A stretch of 34,397 bases of DNA, from the NCBI GenBank assembly GCA_902805975.1, contig CADCUT010000113.1, positions 1 to 34,397 on the forward strand, written 5' to 3'. The translations under genes and the position numbers were made by a program. The notes under the pieces are model-generated. The model was not told where the DNA came from, ran no database searches, and worked only from the letters and a program-made list of their open reading frames with translations. Below, piece by piece: positions 16,871 through 26,713 of this stretch (within the stretch, counting starts at the first letter, position 1; every line of letters begins with the position of its first letter). The stretch is from an uncultured Rubrobacteraceae bacterium (GTDB lineage Bacteria; Actinomycetota; Rubrobacteria; Rubrobacterales; Rubrobacteraceae).

Positions 16871-16978
16871 CTAGGTGCGACGACGACGGCGCCTGCGCCT
16901 CCGGCGGCGCTTCCTGCCGCTTCTGCTTCTGTCCGTGCTGCCCGAGAGGGCGGGAGACATCTCCGAGAACTTCGCCAT
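16871..16978 (-). CDS. Tiny Arg-rich basic protein, copy 2
   Basis: 35 residues: a conserved N-terminus MAKFSEMSPALSGS, an SR-like middle TDRSRSGRK, then eleven consecutive arginines and a final Thr. Codons for Arg vary (CGC, CGG, AGG, CGT), so the run is kept at protein level rather than by a simple DNA repeat. ATG 16978 has GAGGAGG (16987-16993) eight bases upstream. The paralogue lies 46 bases upstream with the same first ten residues. Not a recognised family; composition is protamine-like and suggests nucleic-acid binding. No signal peptide. Confidence 0.8.
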   Translation of the reverse strand: MAKFSEMSPALSGSTDRSRSGRKRRRRRRRRRRRT

Positions 16979-17024: not shown

Positions 17025-17135
17025 TTAGTTGGTGCGGCTGCGACGCTGACGCCTGCGACGCCTCCTCCTTCTGCCGCTCCTGCTCCGGTCCCTGCTTCCC
17101 GCGCTGGCCGGGGACATCTCCGAGAACTTGGCCAT
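17025..17135 (-). CDS. Tiny Arg-rich basic protein, copy 1
   Basis: 36 residues beginning MAKFSEMSPASAGS, then RDRSRSG, eight arginines, Q, and RRSRTN. It aligns with the downstream copy over its whole length, identical at residues 1-10 and through the DRSRSGR core, and differing at third codon positions, which argues for selection on the protein. ATG 17135 has GGAGGTGA five bases upstream, an ideal Shine-Dalgarno, so strong translation is expected. Its promoter region carries the cluster's shared direct-repeat box (17199-17253). Net charge is about +13 to +15. Protamine-like DNA compaction, RNA binding or an exported cationic peptide are possible; none is shown. Confidence 0.82.
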   Translation of the reverse strand: MAKFSEMSPASAGSRDRSRSGRRRRRRRRQRRSRTN

Positions 17136-17179: not shown

Positions 17180-17253
17180 AGTATTGTGCGCTCGCCAAAT
17201 TAGGGTGTCATTAGGAACGGATGAGACGGGTCTAATGTGAGAGGGATCTAATG
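17180..17253 (-). promoter_or_regulatory. Promoter with two CRTTAGA-N4-TCTMAY boxes (Arg-rich genes)
   Basis: Read on the minus strand: CATTAGA-N4-TCTCAC (17253-17238, terminal base shared) and CATTAGA-N4-TCTCAT (17237-17221), then CCTAAT at 17215-17210 and again at 17204-17199. TCTCAT, CCTAAT and CCTAAT recur every 11 bp. A possible -10, AATACT, lies at 17185-17180. The tiny Arg-rich gene follows. 11-bp direct repeats are typical of OmpR/PhoB-class regulators. Confidence 0.75.
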
Positions 17254-17292
17254 TGGACCCCCGAAAAAGCCCATTTCGGCGGCCAGAAGCGG

Positions 17293-18768
17293 CTAGCTCT
17301 CGGCCTTCTGTGGCTGCCGGCGGTCCGACCTCGATGGGCTTGCTTCGGGATGGTGCGGCGTAACGGGCAGGTGGATGGACATGCGGGTGCCGCGGCCGGA
17401 GCGGCTCTCGGCGGTGATGTGGCCTCCGTGGGCCTCGACGATGGTCTTCGCGATGGGAAGGCCGAGGCCCGTGCCGCCCATCCGGCGGGAGCGGGCCTTG
17501 TCCACCCGGTAGAAGCGCTCGAAGACCCGGGGCAGGTCCTCCTTGGGGATGCCGGGGCCCTCGTCCTCCACCGTGATCCCGATCTCCCCCGGGCGCGTCG
17601 CGCCCGAGCGGAGCGTCACGGTCCCGCCGGGGGGGCCGTACTTTATGGCGTTGTCGACCAGGATCAGGACGGCCTGCTCCAGGCGGGTCGGGTCCGCCCG
17701 CAGCGTGCCGTTGGCCCGCATGTCCGTCTCCAGCGTGGCGCTGCGCTCCCGGGCGAGCACCGTGGCCCGGCCCGCCAGCTCGCTCATTAGGGGGGGCACG
17801 GAGACGGTCTCCGGCGCCAGGGAGGGCGGCGAGGAGTCCGAGCGGGCCAGGAAGAGAAGCTCCTCGACCATGCGCGACATGCGCTTGGACTCATCGACAA
17901 CGTCTTCCAGAAGCTGCTTCTGCTCGCCCTCGGCGCCGAGGGCGAGGCCCACCTGGGCGTTGCCGCGCAGCACGGTGAGCGGGGTACGAAGCTCGTGTGA
18001 GACGTCCGCCAGAAAGTCGGTCTTCTGGCGGGAGACCTCGGCCAGCTTCTCGGCCGTCTCCTGCTGACCCGCGTAGAGGCGCTTGAGCTCGTTCACCACC
18101 CGCACCGCCGCGTAGGCCAGCGCGGCGCCGGCCAGCAGCAGGCCGAGGATGGCCCCGAGCAGCACGAACTCGGAGGTCTTCGCGGCCCTATCCACCCGCT
18201 GCAGCGAGTCATCCGTCAGGGTCTCGCCTAGGCTATCGAGCTTCTCCGCCTCAAGCTCCATCTGCTCGATCTGTTCGAGACCCCGTTCGCTGGCCTTATC
18301 AAAAGCTTCCCTATCCTCCACCGTCGGCTGCACGAGGGGCCTGAAGCCCGAGAAGTACTCGTCCGCCCAGCGCCTGAAATCTTCCGGCTGCGGGGCGCCG
18401 GGGTCGTAAGGACCGACGCCGTTGAGCTCGTCTATCTCCTCGTAGAGCCTCGTCCGGGCTGCCTCGTACTCGTCGATGCCCTCCCGCGTGACGCGGCCGG
18501 TGTTCAGGCTGTTGAAGTACACGTTCCGGTGGTAGTGGCGGACGTCCAGGATCGCCGCGCGGATGTCGTCGCCCTCGTCCTCGAGCTCCACGTACCCCAG
18601 AGCCTCGGCGGAGACCTGCTCGATGCTGCGCGTCTGCCAGAAGCCTATGAGGCCGGCGATGATGATCGCGACCAGCAGGCCGCCCACGGCCACCATGGTC
18701 ACCCGCCACGGCTCTGCGCGAACGCCCCTGATCCAACCCAAAACAACCCCAACCTTCTGAGATATCAC
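17293..18768 (-). CDS. Sensor histidine kinase
   Basis: About 491 residues. One membrane helix near the N-terminus (AVGGLLVAIIIAGLIGFW), a roughly 150-residue outside helical sensor region (contains HYHRNVYFN and many acidic residues), a second helix (LLGAILGLLLAGAALAYAAV), then the HisKA helix with phospho-acceptor H258 in SHELRTPL, and the ATPase domain with N box DNAIKY, DEGPGIP and GGTGLGL. It autophosphorylates and should signal to the divergently encoded response regulator. Start unsure: GTG 18768 is chosen after GGGGTGGG; GTG 18801 would add 11 residues and leave only 29 bases to the regulator gene. The sensor domain resembles four-helix CHASE3-like sensors; ligand unknown. Confidence 0.9.
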   Translation of the reverse strand: MISQKVGVVLGWIRGVRAEPWRVTMVAVGGLLVAIIIAGLIGFWQTRSIEQVSAEALGYVELEDEGDDIRAAILDVRHYHRNVYFNSLNTGRVTREGIDEYEAARTRLYEEIDELNGVGPYDPGAPQPEDFRRWADEYFSGFRPLVQPTVEDREAFDKASERGLEQIEQMELEAEKLDSLGETLTDDSLQRVDRAAKTSEFVLLGAILGLLLAGAALAYAAVRVVNELKRLYAGQQETAEKLAEVSRQKTDFLADVSHELRTPLTVLRGNAQVGLALGAEGEQKQLLEDVVDESKRMSRMVEELLFLARSDSSPPSLAPETVSVPPLMSELAGRATVLARERSATLETDMRANGTLRADPTRLEQAVLILVDNAIKYGPPGGTVTLRSGATRPGEIGITVEDEGPGIPKEDLPRVFERFYRVDKARSRRMGGTGLGLPIAKTIVEAHGGHITAESRSGRGTRMSIHLPVTPHHPEASPSRSDRRQPQKAES

Positions 18769-18814
18769 CGGCGCCCACCCCGGCGTCTGCCCGCGGCCCA
18801 CGGCGCCCCTGCAT

Positions 18815-18820
18815 TATACT
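18815..18820 (+). promoter_or_regulatory. -10 element of the response regulator gene
   Basis: TATACT lies ten bases before the ATG at 18831, with no Shine-Dalgarno between. Transcription from it would begin within a few bases of the start codon, giving a leaderless or nearly leaderless mRNA. No convincing -35 is visible. Confidence 0.5.
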
Positions 18821-18830
18821 TGCGGCCGAT

Positions 18831-19520
18831 ATGTTGATACTTATCGTGGAAGACGACCCCGCCATCGTGCGCTTTCTGGAGCGCGGCCTGGGCGCCCACG
18901 GCCACAGCACCATGACGGCCGGGGACGGCGAGGAGGGCGTGCGCCTGGCCGCCGAGGAGTCCGTCGAGATGGTCCTGCTCGACGTCATGCTGCCCCGCCT
19001 CGACGGCCAGCAGGCCCTCCAGCGCATCCGCCTGCGCCGTCCCAACCTGCCCGTGCTGATGCTCACCGCCCGCGACGAGGTTCACCACAAGGTGAACGCC
19101 CTGGATTCCGGGGCCGACGACTACCTCACGAAGCCCTTCGACCTCGAAGAGCTCCTGGCCCGGATGCGCGCGCTCACCCGCCGCTCGGACCAGCCCTGGT
19201 CCTCCAAGATGGCCTTCGGCGACCTGAGCGTGGACCTCCGCTCCCGCCGGGTCAGGAGGGGGGAGAAGCAGGTCGACCTCTCCAGCCGCGAGTTCGCCCT
19301 GCTGGAGTACTTCATGCGCCACCCTGGGCAGGTCGTGAGCCGGCAGCAGATCCTCTCGGCCGTCTGGGACTACGCCTTCGACCCCGGCTCGAACGTGGTC
19401 GACGTCTACGTCCGGTACCTGCGCAGCAAGCTCGACCGGCGCGGCGATCCGTCCGTGATCGAGACCGTCCGCGGCGCCGGCTACCGCTTCGAACCGCCCG
19501 CCGATGCCCACGACTCCTGA
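18831..19520 (+). CDS. OmpR/PhoB-family response regulator
   Basis: 229 residues: receiver domain 1-115 with the acidic pair D8-D9, phospho-acceptor D51 (LLDVMLP), TARD and TKPF, followed by a winged-helix DNA-binding domain (130-225) with SSREFALLEYFMRHPGQVVSR, NVVDVYVRYLRSKLD and VRGAGYRF. The divergent histidine kinase is its obvious partner. Members of this family bind tandem direct repeats spaced 11 bp, exactly the pattern found in intergenic regions on both sides of this gene, so I infer it is the regulator of the cluster. Its 3' end overlaps the convergent lipoprotein gene by 40 bp. Confidence 0.93.
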   Translation: MLILIVEDDPAIVRFLERGLGAHGHSTMTAGDGEEGVRLAAEESVEMVLLDVMLPRLDGQQALQRIRLRRPNLPVLMLTARDEVHHKVNALDSGADDYLTKPFDLEELLARMRALTRRSDQPWSSKMAFGDLSVDLRSRRVRRGEKQVDLSSREFALLEYFMRHPGQVVSRQQILSAVWDYAFDPGSNVVDVYVRYLRSKLDRRGDPSVIETVRGAGYRFEPPADAHDS

Positions 19521-20050
19521 GGGCCGCCGGCCGGACCGGTGAGCTCGACCTTCGCCCCCGAACCGCCGTCGCGCGACAGGACATCAACCTCCGCCTCAAA
19601 ATTCCCGCGTAGGATCAGGTAGTGCCAGCCGTCGCCCGAGTACTCGACGTTCGCGACCTGCCATCCCTCCGCGCCGAACACGCCGCGGTAGAACTCTCTC
19701 ACCGCGTCCGCCCCCTCCGTGGTCAGGTACGACGTCCGGACGAGCACCAGCCCGTTCGCCTCCCTCTCCGAGTAGCCGGTCCGCACCGAGCCGGGGGGGC
19801 GCGGAAGCCCCGGAACGGGCTCGCCCCGCGCGTCCCGTGCCGGGATGGAGGCCGAGAGGGTCTTGCCCCCAGAACCTTCCCCCGTGGCCTCCTCTTTCGG
19901 GACCGTTCCCGCGAGCCGCTGGCCTTCAAGGCCTGGGGGCGTCTCATCTTGCGTCGACGGGTCCGGTGGGACGCAGCCAAGAGAAAGAGAGAGGGATGCG
20001 AGGACGAACACGAGCGCCGGGACGCCTGGCCTCGCGCGGAACGGACGCAA
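19481..20050 (-). CDS. Secreted lipoprotein, unknown function
   Basis: 189 residues. A basic N-terminus, hydrophobic 11-24 and the lipobox LSLGC with C26 as the lipidated residue show a lipoprotein. Residues 27-95 are Pro/Gly/Glu-rich linker; 95-175 look like a small folded domain (YLTTEGADAVREFYRGVFGAEGWQVANVEYSGDGWHYLILRG), in which the AxxFYxxxL-like helix followed by GW and a beta hairpin resembles sequences in other actinobacterial lipoproteins of unknown role. TTG 20050 has GAGAGGAG a few bases upstream. The upstream region holds the cluster's direct-repeat box in the right orientation (20138-20176). The 3' end overlaps the response regulator gene by 40 bp on the opposite strand, giving overlapping transcripts. 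Confidence 0.82.
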   Translation of the reverse strand: MRPFRARPGVPALVFVLASLSLSLGCVPPDPSTQDETPPGLEGQRLAGTVPKEEATGEGSGGKTLSASIPARDARGEPVPGLPRPPGSVRTGYSEREANGLVLVRTSYLTTEGADAVREFYRGVFGAEGWQVANVEYSGDGWHYLILRGNFEAEVDVLSRDGGSGAKVELTGPAGGPQESWASAGGSKR

Positions 20051-20137
20051 TGCTCTCCTCTCTTGTGGTCTGGTCCTTCCGTCGGGGGCTCGGGTCGGAC
20101 GGGCTGTCTTCTCTGATCCGGATGGTAAGCCCGATGC

Positions 20138-20176
20138 GTTAGAGGCCCGTTAGGCCATCGTTAGAAGCCTCTAATG
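20138..20176. promoter_or_regulatory. CRTTAGA-N4-TCTMAY box with three 11-bp direct repeats
   Basis: GTTAG occurs at 20138, 20149 and 20160, exactly 11 bp apart, and the last runs into CTAATG. On the minus strand this reads CATTAGA-N4-TCTAAC followed by CCTAAC and TCTAAC, the same orientation toward the lipoprotein gene as the other boxes have toward their genes. It lies between the lipoprotein and the divergent sigma factor, so it may control one or both. Confidence 0.75.
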
Positions 20177-20218
20177 TGGTCTTCTCTGGCAAGCCGCGCC
20201 GTCGGGCCGTTCGTGCAC

Positions 20219-20224
20219 TATTAT
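20219..20224 (+). promoter_or_regulatory. Possible -10 element of the sigma factor gene
   Basis: TATTAT in GCACTATTATGG. If used, transcription would start near 20231, at the GTG codon 20232, making the sigma factor mRNA leaderless and the ATG at 20223 untranslated. A similar GCACTACTAG precedes the subtilase gene. Confidence 0.4.
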
Positions 20225-20774
20225 GGCTGGCGTGAGGGGGGATGACGCAGAGCTTATCCGGGGCTGCAAGAAGGGCCAGGCGGGGGCGTGGGACCGGCTG
20301 GTCAAAAAGTACGAGCGGCTCGTGTTCTCCATCCCGCGCTCTTATGGGCTCTCGCCCGCCGACGCCGCTGACGTCTCCCAGCTCACGTTCACCATCCTGA
20401 TCCAATCCTTAGATTCCCTCACGGAAGAGAGCAACGTGAAGGCCTGGCTCGCCACCGTCGCCCGCCGCCACACCTGGCGTCTGATGGAGAAGGGCCGCCG
20501 CGAGGGCCCGGGCCGCGAGGACGACCTGGCCGACACCCCCTGGCTGCTCGGCAACGAGAAACCATCGGAGCTGTGGGAGACCATCGACTGGCTCGACGGG
20601 GGCCTCTCGGCTCTGGGCGAGCCCTGCCGCGGGCTGCTGACGGCCCTCTACCTCGACGCATCAGAGCCGTCTTACGCCGAGATCTCCGGCCGCCTCGGCA
20701 TGCCCGTCGGGAGCATCGGTCCCACCCGCGCCCGCTGCCTGCGGCGCCTCAGGACGATCCTGGGGGACCGTTGA
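20223..20774 (+). CDS. ECF (extracytoplasmic function) sigma factor
   Basis: 183 residues. Sigma region 2 spans about 10-85 (LIRGCKKGQAGAWDRLVKKYERLVF, then DAADVSQLTFTILIQSLDSL and VKAWLATVARRHTWRLMEK), region 4 about 125-180 (ALGEPCRGLLTALYLDASEPSYAEISGRLGMPVGSIGPTRARCLRRLRTIL) with the helix-turn-helix. The GSIGPTRARCL recognition helix is typical of actinobacterial ECF factors found beside CHAT or subtilase genes. No anti-sigma membrane protein is adjacent; the next gene may take that part. Start: ATG 20223 is the longest option, without ribosome site; GTG 20232 is equally likely if the -10 at 20219 is real. The terminator-like stem overlaps its stop codon. Confidence 0.88.
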   Translation: MAGVRGDDAELIRGCKKGQAGAWDRLVKKYERLVFSIPRSYGLSPADAADVSQLTFTILIQSLDSLTEESNVKAWLATVARRHTWRLMEKGRREGPGREDDLADTPWLLGNEKPSELWETIDWLDGGLSALGEPCRGLLTALYLDASEPSYAEISGRLGMPVGSIGPTRARCLRRLRTILGDR

Positions 20775-20813
20775 GGCAACCCCGGACGATCTCTGTCCCC
20801 CGTGTATTTTTTC
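20762..20813 (+). terminator. Terminator-like hairpin after the sigma factor
   Basis: GGGGGAC (20762-20768) pairs with GTCCCCC (20795-20801) around a 26-base loop; ATTTTTT follows at 20806-20812, one of the few T6 runs in the window. The stem includes the sigma stop-codon area, so it could attenuate read-through into the next two genes. Confidence 0.5.
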
Positions 20814-20892
20814 GCTTCTCCCGTTGCATTCCCTTGGCGACGAGTACGGCGATTCGGAGGCGTCGGGGATCTTGCACGGGAGGTACGCAGCG

Positions 20893-21510
20893 GTGAGCCG
20901 GGAGCGAATAGACTTCGAGACCCTCGCGGACTGGGCCGAGGGACGCCTCCCCGATGAGGAGGCCCGCGCCGTCGAGGAACGTCTGGCCGGGGCCGACGAG
21001 GAGACCCGTGCCGGGGCCGAATGGCTCAGGGAGTTCTACCGTCTGGGCGAGGGTGTAGTCCTCGAGGGCCCGCCCGAAGGTCAGCGGGCCGAGCTGGCGA
21101 AGGCCTTCGAGGATTACGCCGAAGGTCGGCGGCTGCCGGGACCGTTGAAGCGCCTGACGGCGACGCTCTCCTTTGGCGGTGGGTTGCAGCCCCTGTCGGG
21201 CGTCCGGTCGGCCGGCGGGTCGGAGGGGCAGCTCGTCTACACCACCGAGGCCGCCGACGTGGCGCTAAACTTCAGGCGGCGCCCCGGAAACGGGAAGCTC
21301 GACCTCGACGGGCAGATCTTCCCCAACGACGAAGCGGAGGCCGGGGTGTTCGGCGTCCAGATCCTCAGCGGCGCGGAGGAGGTGGGCACGACCGCCACGG
21401 ACGAGCTCGGCGAGTTCGCCTTCGAGGGCGTGGCGCCGGGACGGTACCAGATCCTGTTGAGCAGCGACGCGGTCGAGATCCTCATATCCCCGGTGGAACT
21501 GAACGCGTAG
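20893..21510 (+). CDS. Anti-sigma-like (zinc-finger-less) protein with C-terminal beta-sandwich
   Basis: 205 residues, no membrane helix. Residues 1-50 (FETLADWAEGRLPDEEARAVEERLAGADEETRAGAEWLREFYRL) copy the helical layout of zinc-binding anti-sigma (ZAS/zf-HC2) domains, including the LADWAEGRL-like opening, but the Cys and His zinc ligands are absent. A linker follows, then about 130-205 resembles a carboxypeptidase-regulatory or Cna-B-like beta-sandwich (LDLDGQIFP, VQILSGAEEVGTTATDELGEFAFEGVAPGRYQILL). GTG 20893 has GGGAGG nine bases upstream; the open frame 23 codons earlier is not preferred. Position between an ECF sigma factor and a CHAT protease suggests a cytosolic adaptor, or a CHAT substrate that holds the sigma factor. 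That is inference; no partner contact can be read. Confidence 0.72.
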   Translation: MSRERIDFETLADWAEGRLPDEEARAVEERLAGADEETRAGAEWLREFYRLGEGVVLEGPPEGQRAELAKAFEDYAEGRRLPGPLKRLTATLSFGGGLQPLSGVRSAGGSEGQLVYTTEAADVALNFRRRPGNGKLDLDGQIFPNDEAEAGVFGVQILSGAEEVGTTATDELGEFAFEGVAPGRYQILLSSDAVEILISPVELNA

Positions 21511-21519
21511 AATGGGGTA

Positions 21520-24417
21520 ATGCCGGGCAAAGCCGGGATCGAACCGGGCCTTCTGGACGAGCTGCTCGACCTCCCGACGCGGGAGCGACAGGCTCGATCT
21601 CTGCGCGACAAGGGGCTCCTAGACGCCGGCGGGCTCGGCCGGCTGCTGGACGCGGCCGAGGGGCTCTTGAACAGCGATCCCGGCAAGTCGCGACGGCTTG
21701 CTGGCCTCTGCGTCGATGTGGCGGACGAAGCCAGCGCGCCAGCCGCCCTTCCGAGGGCGAGCTATCTCATCGCGGGCACGCACAGCATGGGCGGGGATTT
21801 TGCCGAGGACTTGCGGTTCACCGAAGCCGCCTACAGGGGGTACCTCGACCTCGGCATGACCATGGAAGCCCTGCGCACCAGAGTAGGGAAGATGGTCGCG
21901 TTGTTCGAACTGGGGCGCTACGGGGAGGCGCTCGATACGGGCAACGCCGTCTTGAATGCTCTGGAGGGACGGGGGGAGATCGAGGCGTCACCCACGCAGC
22001 GGGAGGCCGATCTACTGACCGCGCTCGTGTACCAGAACCGGGGCACCTGCTACGCACACATGGGTCGTTACGACGAAGCGCTAGACGCTTTCGCGGTCGC
22101 CGAAGACCGCTACCGGGCCGTTCAAGCGATAGGACGTCTCGGTGAGATCACCGACAACCGCGGCATCGTCCTGCGCTACCTCGGTCGGGGCAACGAGGCC
22201 TTAGAAGCCCACGAGGCCGCCGCCGCGATCTTTGAGGACGCGAACCTCACCTTGTCCTACGCCCTGGCCCTGGGCAACATTGGGGAGACCTACTCGCAGC
22301 TTGGTAGCTACACCAGCAGCCTCGACGCGTTCGAGCGCGCCCGCCGCCTGTTGAGTTCGCTCGATGCCCCCGTAGACGAACACGACACGTTGCTCGGCAT
22401 AGCAAGCACGTACCTGGCGCTAAACCTGTACCCCGAAGCGTTGGCGGCCTACCGAGAAGCCAAAGGGCTGGTCGAGAACGACGATCTGCGATTCGAACGC
22501 GCCAGCGGTCTGTGGGCGATGGGGGCGACGCTGATCGCTTGCTCGCGGCTCGACGAGGCCGAAGAGGTGTTGGGCAAAGCCGCGGCCTCCTTTGCCGCGC
22601 TCAACAACACGCCGATGCTCTCTAGTGTGATGCTGGAGCAAGCTTCCCTGTTGGCGGAGCGCGGGAACCGGATGGAGGCCCTCGAGAAGGCGGGCCACGC
22701 GCTGGAGATCGTCTCCAGCGGCGATTGGCCCGTGCAGCAGATCTACGCCCGGCTTCGCCTCGCTGACCTATCGCTAGAGGTGGAAGATTCCGAGCCGCAT
22801 CTGCTCGCGGCCCAGCAGCTGGCCGACCGCCTGGCGTTGCCGCAACTGCGCTATCGCCTGAACGAACGTCTGGGCCACCTCCGAAGGCTGCAAGGTCGCA
22901 GCGATGAGGCGCGCGAGTTCCTCGAGAAGGCGGTGGACGAGATAGAGCGCCAGCGGGGCGCGGTCCTCCAGGACGCCATGCGCGTCTCTTTTCTGCGAGA
23001 CAAGACGGCCGCGTTCGCGGACCTCCTGCTCCTGCATCTCGACCGCCAGGACGACGGGGGCGCGATGGACGCCTTCGTCATTGCGGAACGGGCCAAGTCC
23101 CGCGCGCTGGTGGACCTGCTCACGGGCGTCGTTGCCGAGAACACGCCGGCGGCTTCCTCGGATTCGGGGCTGAGGGCACGTATTCAGACCCTGCGGGCGG
23201 ACCTCAACGGGGTCTACGGGGGGTTGCTCGGTGGCCTCGAAAACGACGAGCACCACGTGCCCGTCCGGGACCTGCACGAGCGGGCCGTCGAGTTGGAGCA
23301 GGAGATCGGCCGTCTGCGGCTGCAGGTCTCGGCCGTCGGCCGCAAGCCCGACCCGTTCGGAGAGCCCATGCTCCAGGACGAGATCCAGAACCAGCTCCCC
23401 CCGGACGTGCCGTTGCTCGCATACCACGTCGCCGAAGGCGAGGTTATGGCTTTTGTCTACGCGGGAGAACGTGTCCGGTTCGTGCGGCGCCTCAGTACGG
23501 CGGACAGGGTGCGGCGGCTCCTGCACAGGCTCGACATCCAGTGGGACCGTTTTCGTGCCGGTCGGGGGTTTACCCGGCGACACACGGCGACCCTCGAGCG
23601 GTCGGCCCGGCACGTGCTGGCCGCCCTCTACGCCGAGCTGGTGGCGCCACTCGAGACGCTTTTAGAGCAGGCCGCCACCGTCACCGGAGGAACGGGTGCC
23701 GTCCCGGAGCTCGCCATCTTGCCCCACGGCCCGCTGCACCGCGTGCCCTTCCATGCCCTGTTCGACGGTGACGGGTATATGGTCGAGCGGTTCGCAATCT
23801 CTTACGCTCCCAGCGCGACGGTGTACGCGCTGTGCCAGCAGCGGTCCCCTCTTAACTCGGGTCTGGCCCTGGTGTTTGGTGTGGAAGACCCCTCGATACC
23901 CGCCGCTACCATCGAGGCACGCGCCGTCTCGGAGCGAATCATCGGCGCCGAGGTGCGTCTGGGCGAAGAGGCTACCGTGGCAACTCTGCAAGAAGATGCG
24001 CCGCGCTGCGAAGTGCTGCACCTCGCCTGCCACGGCCTGTTCCGTGCGGACAACCCCATGTTCTCGTCGCTCAAGCTGGGCGACGGCTGGCTTACCGCCG
24101 CCGACGCGTTGAGCCTGGACCTCCCGGGCATGCTGGTGACCCTCAGCGCCTGCGAGTCGGGACGCGGGGAGGTGATCGGCGGCGATGAAGTCCTCGGGCT
24201 CACCCGGGCTTTTCTCGGTGCCGGCGCGGCGACGCTGGTGGTCAGCCTGTGGGTGGTGCAGGACGAGACGACGGCGGCGTTGATGGAGACCTGGTACGGT
24301 CTCATGGACGATGGGACGGGGCGAGCCGCCGCCCTGCGTTCCGCGCAGCTGGCGGTCAAAGAGAGGAACCCGCATCCATACTACTGGGCGCCCTTCGTCT
24401 TGATCGGGAAGCGTTAG
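21520..24417 (+). CDS. TPR-CHAT protease-like protein
   Basis: 965 residues, cytosolic. The first two thirds is an array of TPR-like helical repeats (clear units near 165-205, 210-250, 255-290: NRGTCYAHMGRYDEALDAFAVAEDRY, NRGIVLRYLGRGNEALEAHEAAAAIF, NIGETYSQLGSYTSSLDAFERARRLL). A coiled linker and a CHAT domain (about 615-965) follow. The caspase-like dyad is intact: H838 in HLACHGLF and C878 in TLSACESG, with the C-terminal HPYYWAPFVLIG characteristic of CHAT. CHAT proteins are caspase/separase-like peptidases, some used in gasdermin or CRISPR-linked defence. Nine bases separate it from the preceding gene, so they share a transcript. TPRs would bind a partner or substrate; the neighbouring adaptor is the first candidate. 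Confidence 0.92.
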   Translation: MPGKAGIEPGLLDELLDLPTRERQARSLRDKGLLDAGGLGRLLDAAEGLLNSDPGKSRRLAGLCVDVADEASAPAALPRASYLIAGTHSMGGDFAEDLRFTEAAYRGYLDLGMTMEALRTRVGKMVALFELGRYGEALDTGNAVLNALEGRGEIEASPTQREADLLTALVYQNRGTCYAHMGRYDEALDAFAVAEDRYRAVQAIGRLGEITDNRGIVLRYLGRGNEALEAHEAAAAIFEDANLTLSYALALGNIGETYSQLGSYTSSLDAFERARRLLSSLDAPVDEHDTLLGIASTYLALNLYPEALAAYREAKGLVENDDLRFERASGLWAMGATLIACSRLDEAEEVLGKAAASFAALNNTPMLSSVMLEQASLLAERGNRMEALEKAGHALEIVSSGDWPVQQIYARLRLADLSLEVEDSEPHLLAAQQLADRLALPQLRYRLNERLGHLRRLQGRSDEAREFLEKAVDEIERQRGAVLQDAMRVSFLRDKTAAFADLLLLHLDRQDDGGAMDAFVIAERAKSRALVDLLTGVVAENTPAASSDSGLRARIQTLRADLNGVYGGLLGGLENDEHHVPVRDLHERAVELEQEIGRLRLQVSAVGRKPDPFGEPMLQDEIQNQLPPDVPLLAYHVAEGEVMAFVYAGERVRFVRRLSTADRVRRLLHRLDIQWDRFRAGRGFTRRHTATLERSARHVLAALYAELVAPLETLLEQAATVTGGTGAVPELAILPHGPLHRVPFHALFDGDGYMVERFAISYAPSATVYALCQQRSPLNSGLALVFGVEDPSIPAATIEARAVSERIIGAEVRLGEEATVATLQEDAPRCEVLHLACHGLFRADNPMFSSLKLGDGWLTAADALSLDLPGMLVTLSACESGRGEVIGGDEVLGLTRAFLGAGAATLVVSLWVVQDETTAALMETWYGLMDDGTGRAAALRSAQLAVKERNPHPYYWAPFVLIGKR

Positions 24418-24495
24418 CCCATTGCCGGGCTTCCGGCAGACGGGGCCTTTCGCGCCGTTCTCCCCCGTACGGTGCAAGAGGCGATAGACGGCCTA

Positions 24496-24547
24496 CGTTA
24501 GAACTCTCTAATCTTTCTATCATCGGGCTCTAACGGCGCACTACTAG
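24496..24547 (+). promoter_or_regulatory. CRTTAGA-N4-TCTMAY promoter of the subtilase gene
   Basis: CGTTAGA-N4-TCTAAT at 24496-24512, then TATCAT at 24518 and TCTAAC at 24529: TCTAAT, TATCAT and TCTAAC start at 24507, 24518 and 24529, an 11-bp period. A possible -10, TACTAG (24542-24547), follows seven bases after the last repeat, leaving a leader of about 45 bases before the GTG start. Confidence 0.72.
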
Positions 24548-24598
24548 TGTGAGGCGTGGAACACACGCTGGTCTTGCAGCGCTCCTTGGGAGGAACAA

Positions 24599-25984
24599 GT
24601 GGAGAATCTCATCCGACAGTCGAGAGGCCCGGCCGACGACGCGAGGCCAGCGCAGGGCCCGGTCCTGGTCGCGCTGGTGGCGGCGGCAGTGGCCGCGTTG
24701 CTGTGCCTCCCGCCCGCCGGTCCCGCAGCGGCGGCCGACGGCGACGACGACGATGGTGGCGAGGTCATCTCGCGGCAGGTCGTGGTCAAGCTCAAGCCCG
24801 GGACCAGCGTGGCCCGGTTCAACAAGAAGTTCGATACGCGGACTATCCAGAGGCTACCCGGCGGCGAGGAGATCTTCCTGCTAAAGACGCGCCGGGGGGT
24901 CGACCCGGCTAGGCTGGCGGCACGGATGCGCAAAGACTCGCGCGTGATCTACGCCGAGCCGAACTTCAAGGCGGGGTCTCCGGAGGGGAGCAAGTTCCAC
25001 AGGGCGCGTCCCGGCGGCACGCCTGATGTCACCACCTCCGACCTCGCGCTGTACGAGAGCCAGTACGCCGTCGACAACCTGAACCTGACGGAGGCGCACG
25101 CCACCAGCAGGGGCGCGGGCGTGGTGGTCGCGGTGATCGACACGGGCGTGCAGTCCGACCACGAAGTCTTAGACGGTAAGACGGCCGCAGGCTACGACTT
25201 TGTGGAGATGGACCGAAACCCCGACGATGTGGGCGACGACGAGGACAACGACCTCGACGGCGAAAAGGACGAGATGGTCGGCCACGGCACGCACGTGGCG
25301 GGCATCGTCGCGCTCGCGGCGCCGGATGCCAGAATCATGCCGATCCGGGCGCTGGATACGGAGGGTCGGGGCACCACCTTCGGGATCGCAAAGGCGATCC
25401 GGTACGCCACCCGCAACGGCGCCGACGTGGTGAACCTGAGCCTCGGCTCGTCCGGGGAGACTGAGCTTCTTGGGGACCTGATCGGGGACGACGATGACGA
25501 CGCGGGCGACACGGTCTTCGTGGCGGCCGCCGGCAACGACGGCACGGACGGCATCCAGTGCCCGCAGAACGGCTCGTGCAGCCCGCAGTTCCCGGCCGCC
25601 GAGGAGGGCGCGATAGCCGTGGCCTCCGTGGACGGCCAGAAGCGGAGGTCTGACTTCTCCAACTTTGGCGGATGGCTCACGGTCGCCGCCCCGGGCTCGG
25701 AGATCCACTCCCCGTTCCCGCCCGACGACTACGCCACGTGGAGCGGCACCTCGATGGCCACGCCGTTCGTGGCCGGGCAGGCCGCCCTCGTCAGCGCCGC
25801 AGCGCCAGGGGCGGACGCCTCCTGCGTCGCCGGGATCATCGAGACGACCGCCGATAGGACGGCGCTGGAGACCGCCAACCCGACCCTCATCGGCAAGCTC
25901 GGCAGCGGGCACGCCGACGCGGCGGCCAGCACGGACTACGCGGCAAACCAGCGGAACCCGTGCGCCGGCACGGGGGACGACTAG
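24599..25984 (+). CDS. Secreted subtilisin-like serine protease (S8)
   Basis: 461 residues. Signal peptide (hydrophobic 22-38, AAAA cleavage near 46), an Asp-rich segment, then an I9/fervidolysin-like propeptide (55-125, VVVKLKPGTSVARFNKKF to VIYAEPNF) and the S8 catalytic domain with D181 (VIDTG), H229 (GHGTHVAG), the oxyanion AAAGND and S385 (GTSMATP). Acidic loops (DDVGDDEDNDLDGEKDE; GDDDDDAGD) probably bind calcium. Four Cys in the mature part could form disulphides. No C-terminal anchor, so it should be released. GTG 24599 has GGGAGGAA upstream. It follows the CHAT gene but has its own boxed promoter (24496-24547); co-regulation of intracellular and extracellular proteases is inferred. 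Confidence 0.93.
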   Translation: MENLIRQSRGPADDARPAQGPVLVALVAAAVAALLCLPPAGPAAAADGDDDDGGEVISRQVVVKLKPGTSVARFNKKFDTRTIQRLPGGEEIFLLKTRRGVDPARLAARMRKDSRVIYAEPNFKAGSPEGSKFHRARPGGTPDVTTSDLALYESQYAVDNLNLTEAHATSRGAGVVVAVIDTGVQSDHEVLDGKTAAGYDFVEMDRNPDDVGDDEDNDLDGEKDEMVGHGTHVAGIVALAAPDARIMPIRALDTEGRGTTFGIAKAIRYATRNGADVVNLSLGSSGETELLGDLIGDDDDDAGDTVFVAAAGNDGTDGIQCPQNGSCSPQFPAAEEGAIAVASVDGQKRRSDFSNFGGWLTVAAPGSEIHSPFPPDDYATWSGTSMATPFVAGQAALVSAAAPGADASCVAGIIETTADRTALETANPTLIGKLGSGHADAAASTDYAANQRNPCAGTGDD

Positions 25985-25997
25985 AGATGACCCGCCG

Positions 25998-26014
25998 CAT
26001 TAGAAAGCTCTCAT
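25998..26014 (+). promoter_or_regulatory. CRTTAGA-N4-TCTMAY box upstream of the beta-repeat protein
   Basis: CATTAGA-N4-TCTCAT, same orientation to its gene as the other boxes, 112 bases before the start codon and 14 bases after the subtilase stop. Extra 11-bp half-sites seen elsewhere are not evident here. GAATAT at 26027-26032 is a possible -10. Confidence 0.6.
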
Positions 26015-26125
26015 AGGGCCGCGTTTGAATATCTTTCGGGGCGGGCTCGCGCACTTGTGGGGTGCAAGACAGGGAACTACCGGGGGCCGTCGGGGCCTTC
26101 GGGACTCGGAGAGAGGAGTGAGGGT

Positions 26126-26713
26126 ATGTCGAGCAGGGTCGTGTCGGTTTCGCTAACGGGGATGATGGCGCTGATGATGGGCCTCGCGGCGCTGCTTGTG
26201 GCGGCGCAGGCGGCGCAGGCCGAGGAGCGGGTGTGCCGGGGCACCATCGGCTCCACGACGGTGGATAACCTGCGGGTGCCGCAGGGCGCCTCGTGTCTGC
26301 TCAACGGGACGAAGGTCGAGGGGACGGTCAAGGTCGAGCGGAGCGCGACGCTCGTCGCAAACACCATCAGGGTCAAGGGCAACGTCCAGAGCGAAGGCTT
26401 CAAGAATATTACCCTCAGGAAGAACTCCGTGGTCGTCGGCAGCGTGCAGCTCGAGAACGGTCTCGAAGACGGCACGGGAAGGGTGCTGGGCTCCAGGATC
26501 AACGGTGACCTGCAGTACTTCTCCAACGAGGCGCGCATGGTCGCGCGGGGCAACACCCTCCTCGCCAACCTCCAGGCCAACCAGAACACCGGCGGGCTCG
26601 TCATAGAGGACAACAGGATCGCCGAGAACCTCCAGTGCCAGGCGAACAACCCGCCCCCGACCGGCGGCGGCAACACGGCGGGCGACAAGGAAGACCAGTG
26701 CGCCGCGCTCTAG
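26126..26713 (+). CDS. Secreted repetitive beta protein, unknown function
   Basis: 195 residues. Signal peptide 1-32 (hydrophobic LTGMMALMMGLAALLVAAQAAQA). The mature part has about seven short beta repeats with alternating charged/hydrophobic pattern (VEGTVKVERSATLVANTIRVKGNVQSEGF, KNITLRKNSVVVGSVQLENGL, NRIAENLQCQ), as in right-handed beta-helices and bactofilin-like polymer proteins; the turn residues N and G recur. Four Cys, and a Pro/Gly/Thr-rich end. No catalytic motif. ATG 26126 has GAGAGGAG and GAGGG upstream. It lies after the subtilase, has its own copy of the cluster box, and could be a cell-surface or matrix protein that the protease processes; that is inference. Confidence 0.82.
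   Translation: MSSRVVSVSLTGMMALMMGLAALLVAAQAAQAEERVCRGTIGSTTVDNLRVPQGASCLLNGTKVEGTVKVERSATLVANTIRVKGNVQSEGFKNITLRKNSVVVGSVQLENGLEDGTGRVLGSRINGDLQYFSNEARMVARGNTLLANLQANQNTGGLVIEDNRIAENLQCQANNPPPTGGGNTAGDKEDQCAAL

Follow-up and report, generated by a model that had tools for sequence, protein, structure and literature searches.

An 11-bp repeat promoter element points to an OmpR/PhoB-type envelope regulon in Rubrobacteraceae

A short inverted repeat (dyad) found in several intergenic regions of a 34,397-nucleotide stretch of an uncultured Rubrobacteraceae bacterium (contig CADCUT010000113.1; hereafter the window) forms just the distal portion of an extended promoter element, which ends in a -10 hexamer and precedes genes for tiny arginine-rich (Arg-rich) proteins, for a lipoprotein-like product (LIPO), for a secreted subtilase and for a secreted beta-repeat protein (BETA). 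With a probability of roughly 80%, as judged from sequence comparison, these boxes are binding sites through which the OmpR/PhoB-family response regulator encoded at 18831-19520 would activate an envelope regulon. Computation shows the element itself, its geometry relative to the promoter, its conservation, the families of its target genes and its linkage to the regulator; these describe a real regulon of a known kind that is apparently undescribed; in the open literature we found no response-regulator regulon described for Rubrobacteraceae.

Copies of the dyad in the window and in the genome

Exact matches to the dyad CRTTAGANNNNTCTMAY were found in the window at 17221-17237 and 17237-17253 (both on the minus strand), at 20159/20160-20176 (both strands), and at 24496-24512 and 25998-26014 (both on the plus strand), and the pattern search retrieved no further exact copy in the rest of the window. 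All five copies listed in an earlier note on this sequence do exist, the second one near 17 kb lying at 17237-17253 and not at 17238-17253, and its statement that no copy occurs elsewhere in the window was borne out by the same search. Allowing up to two mismatches, 14 matches were counted in the window against 1.2 expected from shuffled sequences (maximum 5). Searched against Rfam, the window showed no RNA element, and no tRNA was found in it.

The genome search covered 3,528,030 bases in 238 contigs. Throughout these 3.53 Mb, exact RTTAGANNNNTCTMAY was present only at the five window sites and at C105:21831 (G, C and L numbers designate genomes, contigs and loci), 154 nt upstream of the gene of a small secreted aspartate-rich (Asp-rich) protein; the random scatter that the earlier note had named as contrary evidence was not found. 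Genome G000 gave 4+5 exact matches versus 0 for the reversed control pattern. A sequence-only covariance model, used as the genome-wide profile, retrieved five sites at E ≤ 10, namely three in the window, the C105 site and one at C131:6044-6098, which precedes another tiny Arg-rich gene. The box at 25998 was missed by this canonical profile in the genome-wide search owing to the 4-bp shift of its proximal repeats. Exact-core matches lacking the repeats (L052, L053, L060, L083 and others) were weaker and were set aside as probable chance occurrences.

Architecture of the full element

Alignment of the boxes of relatives gave the full unit RTTAGA-N4-TCTMAY-N5-YCTMAY-N5-YTTAAC-N10-(nAnnAT). Canonical sites contain three direct repeats at 11-bp steps, usually with one inverted half-site upstream, and the distal 16 bp form a near-perfect dyad. 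The last repeat ends 10 nt before the -10 hexamer, in which the second base is A and the last one T. Among 22 sites picked by the dyad and two repeats only, ignoring the -10, 21 carry A(-11) (binomial p about 1e-15) and 20 carry T(-7) (p about 7e-14). With an ungapped profile, 43 sites scored above 35 bits, whereas reversed sequence reached 31.6 bits at most. When the scan was run without the inverted half-site, the upstream unit was inverted in 55 sites, a figure biased by the fact that most loci had been fetched using the dyad, and was a fourth direct repeat in 9. The boxes of the window are the following:

17182-17236, minus strand: canonical box and Arg-rich promoter, ATTAGA-cccg-TCTCAT-ccgtt-CCTAAT-gacac-CCTAAT-N10-CACAAT; -10 at 17183-17188; E 1.5e-5 in its own genome; seen in footprint alignment.
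17237-17253, minus strand: second upstream dyad, ATTAGA-N4-TCTCAC, 16 bp from the first; kept in G004 and G006.
20121-20175, minus strand: canonical box and LIPO promoter, ATTAGA-ggct-TCTAAC-gatgg-CCTAAC-gggcc-TCTAAC-N10-TACCAT; -10 at 20122-20127; E 1.1e-7; seen in footprint alignment of four genomes.
24497-24550, plus strand: canonical box and subtilase promoter, GTTAGA-actc-TCTAAT-ctttc-TATCAT-cgggc-TCTAAC-N10-TAGTGT; -10 at 24545-24550; E 1.6e-6; seen in footprint alignment.
25999-26040, plus strand: variant box before BETA, ATTAGA-N4-TCTCAT, then N9-TTTGAA-N5-TTCGGG, with the repeats shifted by 4 bp.

The continuation of TCTAAY-like half-sites at exact 11-bp steps, noted earlier for 17199/17210/17221, 20138/20149/20160 and 24507/24518/24529, is as described. 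A common orientation of all boxes relative to one adjacent gene had also been put forward, and this applies to the Arg-rich, LIPO and subtilase promoters; the 25998 box lacks the 11-bp continuation. Its variant arrangement before BETA recurs in G001 and G006, with TTTAAC there. The variant boxes (25999-26040; L050 1113; L054 8917; L092 4460) share this 4-bp displacement of the two proximal repeats, and at the position expected for the -10 they carry a conserved GCAnnT.

The boxes span about -60 to -23 of the promoter. No separate conserved -35 was found at the box promoters, nor an extracytoplasmic function (ECF)-type -35/-10 pair, the -10 being nAnnAT, and a sigma70 promoter scan of the region gave one weak match, at the Arg-rich promoter, where it picked out the same -10 (17183-17188). 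Tandem half-sites at steps of about 11 bp are the pattern of an OmpR/PhoB-type regulon, and the position of the box beside the -10, replacing a -35, has the geometry of class II activation (PMC4971064).

Conservation and target genes

In footprint alignments upstream of the LIPO, Arg-rich, subtilase and BETA genes the half-sites stand out as islands of identity, and the -10 is also well conserved upstream of the LIPO and Arg-rich genes. Conservation in relatives had been suggested as a check, and a lack of it was not found, half-sites and -10 being kept before orthologous genes. The genes downstream of sites above 34 bits were then counted by class across genomes. Arg-rich genes accounted for 12 sites (8 genomes, 4 genera), LIPO for 9 (9 genomes, 5 genera), GT28-like glycosyltransferases for 6 (6 genomes, 4 genera), Asp-rich secreted proteins or lipoproteins for 6 (6 genomes, 3 genera) and subtilases for 5 (5 genomes, 4 genera), whilst BETA genes had two canonical sites, one of them at a fused subtilase-BETA open reading frame (ORF) of G004, and three variant ones. 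Small proteins bearing LPDTG followed 2 sites, the ECF sigma gene of G017 has two boxes, and at 19 sites above 34 bits the downstream gene fell in none of these simple-rule classes. The genes concerned in the window are:

17025-17135, minus strand: tiny Arg-rich protein of 36 aa (MAKFSEMSPASAGS...RRRRRRRR...); its start lies 101 nt from that of the box, and it has a perfect AGGAGG.
16871-16978, minus strand: a further tiny Arg-rich protein (35 aa), located in tandem downstream of the first; it lacks its own box.
19481-20050, minus strand: LIPO, 189 aa, with a signal/lipobox-like start and no Pfam family; recurrent target.
24599-25984, plus strand: secreted subtilase (Peptidase_S8, mycosin-like); target.
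26126-26713, plus strand: BETA, secreted repeat protein of 195 aa; target, with a variant box here and a canonical one in G010.

Membership of the surface (beta-repeat) protein in the regulon, as proposed earlier, is backed by the presence of a box, canonical in G010, and tempered by the non-canonical form of the box here.

Members of the Arg-rich family are 34-47 aa long, start with MA-x-F and then PA, have a poly-Arg tail in mixed Arg codons and are preceded by a strong Shine-Dalgarno sequence; they were found at 16871-16978 and 17025-17135 (minus strand) and at L048, L049, L054, L056, L059, L062, L090, L182, L183, L187, L188 and L191. The window Arg-rich protein had no NCBIfam match. The boxes L058 6580 and L091 7450 precede small secreted proteins that end in LPDTGG, a hydrophobic stretch and a basic tail, an arrangement resembling a sortase sorting signal. 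At L190 4122 (G004 C214) the subtilase N-terminus is in frame with the BETA C-terminus in one ORF, by deletion or assembly error.

The response regulator and its link to the boxes

Two divergent genes in the middle of the cluster encode a two-component pair:

18831-19520, plus strand: OmpR/PhoB-family response regulator (Response_reg and Trans_reg_C); proposed box binder.
17293-18801, minus strand: membrane histidine kinase (HisKA and HATPase_c), oriented divergently to the regulator gene; taken as the cognate sensor on account of its position.

The presence of an OmpR/PhoB-class regulator gene inside the cluster, as previously recognised, was confirmed by its receiver and Trans_reg_C domains (Pfam PF00072, 3e-29; PF00486, 1.2e-29). 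Among 40 family genomes, 18 were found to have an orthologue with at least 60% identity, that of G023 being a partial copy. Sites at E < 1e-3 were present in 16 of the 18 genomes with the regulator versus 6 of the 22 without it (Fisher p 1e-4, the genomes being non-independent). As to the exceptions, G026 carries a 77% identical kinase at a contig end, G032 is 64% complete, and in the complete genome G016 a deletion leaves 34 regulator residues, with synteny with G027 on both sides. In G016 (L064), compared with G027 (L059), the ABC, Arg-rich and kinase genes are gone, the flanks are 87-89% identical and the LIPO box stays, as in a natural deletion strain.

Outside the family, 397 genomes of the phylum were searched and 15 had a site at E < 1e-3; in 12 of these, a gene for an OmpR-type regulator and/or kinase is found no more than about 2-3 kb away from the site. 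Since about 2-11 regulator matches at E ≤ 1e-40 are found per 2-4.4 Mb genome, adjacency of a random site to a regulator gene is estimated, with no computed control, at a few percent. One of the remaining three sites outside the family (L240, G105, 1892) stands before a BETA homologue of 46% identity in a different family, with no regulator nearby on the short contig.

Co-occurrence, adjacency outside the family, a CovR-like DNA-binding domain (see below) and the fixed -10 spacing support the regulon that the earlier note had proposed for this regulator, its binding being predicted. Several observations weigh on the other side. G016 retains the LIPO box although its kinase gene and the greater part of its regulator gene are gone; G003, G010 and G038 carry boxes with no regulator orthologue of at least 60% identity in their assemblies, and G005 and G008 have the regulator at 66-67% identity and yet no strong box. 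Moreover, the repeats of the BETA box are shifted, OmpR-type regulators are common in these genomes, so that the sites could be shared with, or taken over by, a paralogue, and nothing in the target genes hints directly at the signal.

Proposed mode of action and other explanations

Under the proposed mechanism, the neighbouring membrane kinase would phosphorylate the regulator, which would then bind the three TCTAAY-like half-sites head-to-tail at 11 bp, together with the upstream, usually inverted, half-site. As the promoter-proximal half-site stops 10 nt short of the -10, the bound regulator would stand in place of the -35 element and recruit the housekeeping RNA polymerase, like PhoB at pho boxes. 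The tiny Arg-rich proteins, the small membrane-anchored LIPO protein, the secreted subtilase, the secreted beta-repeat protein and the Asp-rich secreted proteins would thereby be switched on, as would, in other genera, the GT28-like glycosyltransferase, and a function in envelope stress or remodelling may be supposed from such targets.

The regulon is most likely under positive control. The same regulator acting at the same boxes chiefly as a repressor, blocking polymerase at overlapping promoters, would agree with the -60 to -23 extent of the boxes and with CovR, among the closest solved relatives by DNA-binding domain, being mainly a repressor (PMC8893699). We consider this unlikely, as no -35 can be recognised in the promoters (the region gave a single weak sigma70 match) and the distance of the last repeat from the -10 is fixed at 10 nt, as in pho-box activation.

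Even less probable is recognition of the RTTAGA-N4-TCTAAY dyad by a palindrome-binding factor (TetR, MarR or GntR-like) encoded elsewhere, with the response regulator as a bystander. The near-perfect dyad of the distal 16 bp and the box-bearing genomes without a regulator orthologue would suit such a factor, but the dyad alone leaves unexplained two further direct half-sites at exact 11-bp steps, nine sites have a direct and not an inverted upstream unit, and 12 of the 15 boxes outside the family adjoin OmpR-type regulators or kinases.

It is very improbable that the repeats, instead of being an activator site, are part of a promoter for the cluster's ECF sigma factor. An ECF sigma gene does lie in the cluster, and that of G017 has boxes; the -10, however, is of the housekeeping type (A at -11, T at -7), and to our knowledge no sigma-factor site takes the form of four half-sites that follow one another in 11-bp steps across about 50 bp. 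ECF control of the boxes was rejected because many box-bearing genomes have no detected ECF orthologue (G010, G016, G022, G023, G026, G027, G032, G037 and G038). Finally, a chance or mutational residue without function, which the conspicuousness of A+T-rich words in a G+C-rich genome might bring to mind, can be dismissed in view of the shuffle and reversed-pattern controls, the presence of boxes ahead of the same families of genes in several genera and the orthologous conservation, which already refutes it.

The ECF-CHAT operon

Two further features lie between the LIPO and subtilase boxes:

20223-21510, plus strand: ECF sigma factor (20223-20774), followed by an anti-sigma-like protein (20824-21510); no evident target of a box in this genome.
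21520-24417, plus strand: TPR-CHAT protease-like protein, belonging to the conserved cluster; it has no box itself.

What links the ECF-anti-sigma-CHAT operon to the regulon is neighbourhood, and its direct control by a box is not supported here because the 20121-20175 box points to LIPO; it had been suggested earlier that these genes perhaps belong to the regulon, and in G017 the ECF gene does have two boxes. A stretch like TTCGTGCACTATT at 20177-20222, just upstream of the ECF start and kept in four genomes, is probably a separate ECF promoter. The ECF sigma, anti-sigma-like, TPR-CHAT and subtilase genes (20223-25984) form a conserved cluster in many Rubrobacteraceae, and the CHAT protein weakly resembles Csx29; the cluster is a possible protease signalling module. 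Among papers linking CHAT, ECF and subtilase genes, none describing such a cluster was found.

Significance

Activation of the boxes by the regulator would provide a complete and testable regulon for the family, with signal pair, half-site, promoter geometry and targets, and a first regulatory context for unnamed families such as the tiny Arg-rich proteins, LIPO, BETA and the Asp-rich secreted proteins. The same box also occurs next to related regulators elsewhere in the phylum, which suggests that in this subfamily the code linking regulator and site is readable from sequence. More tentatively, one switch may pair Arg-rich micropeptides with strongly acidic secreted proteins, subtilase and sortase-signal-like proteins in a dedicated Rubrobacteraceae envelope-remodelling programme of charged proteins; in such a case the Arg-rich proteins could be a new regulator-controlled micropeptide family, and the four-half-site promoter (one inverted, three direct) a distinct architecture within the OmpR/PhoB family.

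Comparison with known systems

Full-length relatives with solved structures are, best of all, the OmpR-type actinobacterial regulators of Mycobacterium tuberculosis, PrrA (1ys6, E 9e-50), PhoP (3r0j/9ji3) and MtrA (2gwr), the half-site and target set of which are unlike those found here; a search for literature on the MprA motif added nothing to the comparison. The regulator stays below the cut-offs of both the MtrA equivalog (NF040689, 195.5 bits vs 300) and the PhoB equivalog (TIGR02154, 205.1 bits vs 296.2).

With the pho box of PhoB the element shares 11-bp direct repeats for a winged-helix response regulator and the position beside a sigma70 -10, where the E. coli pho box takes over the -35 role (PMC4971064, citing Makino 1986 and Blanco 2002). 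On the contrary, the half-site is TCTAAY/YTTAAC here and TGTCA-like in the pho box, three direct repeats are combined here with an upstream, mostly inverted, half-site, and the targets are envelope and Arg-rich proteins and not phosphate genes.

By DNA-binding domain alone, the closest solved structures are PcoR and CovR (E 1.4e-20 to CovR 3rjp), the recognition-helix stretch being nearly identical (NVVDVYIRYLRgKiD in CovR, NVVDVYVRYLRsKlD here). CovR half-sites resemble ATTARA, in tandem, with 6 bp and a 5-bp spacer, and CovR is described mainly as a repressor (PMC8893699). RTTAGA, with its complement TCTAAY, fits ATTARA, and the 6-bp motif with its 5-bp spacer is likewise arranged head to tail, which supports a CovR-like specificity in the sense of similar predicted recognition and not of CovR orthology. 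The present system differs from CovR (CsrR) of streptococci in belonging to another phylum with a G+C-rich genome, in its few sites per genome and in its other targets, and its fixed -10 geometry suggests activation, as opposed to the mainly repressive role of CovR.

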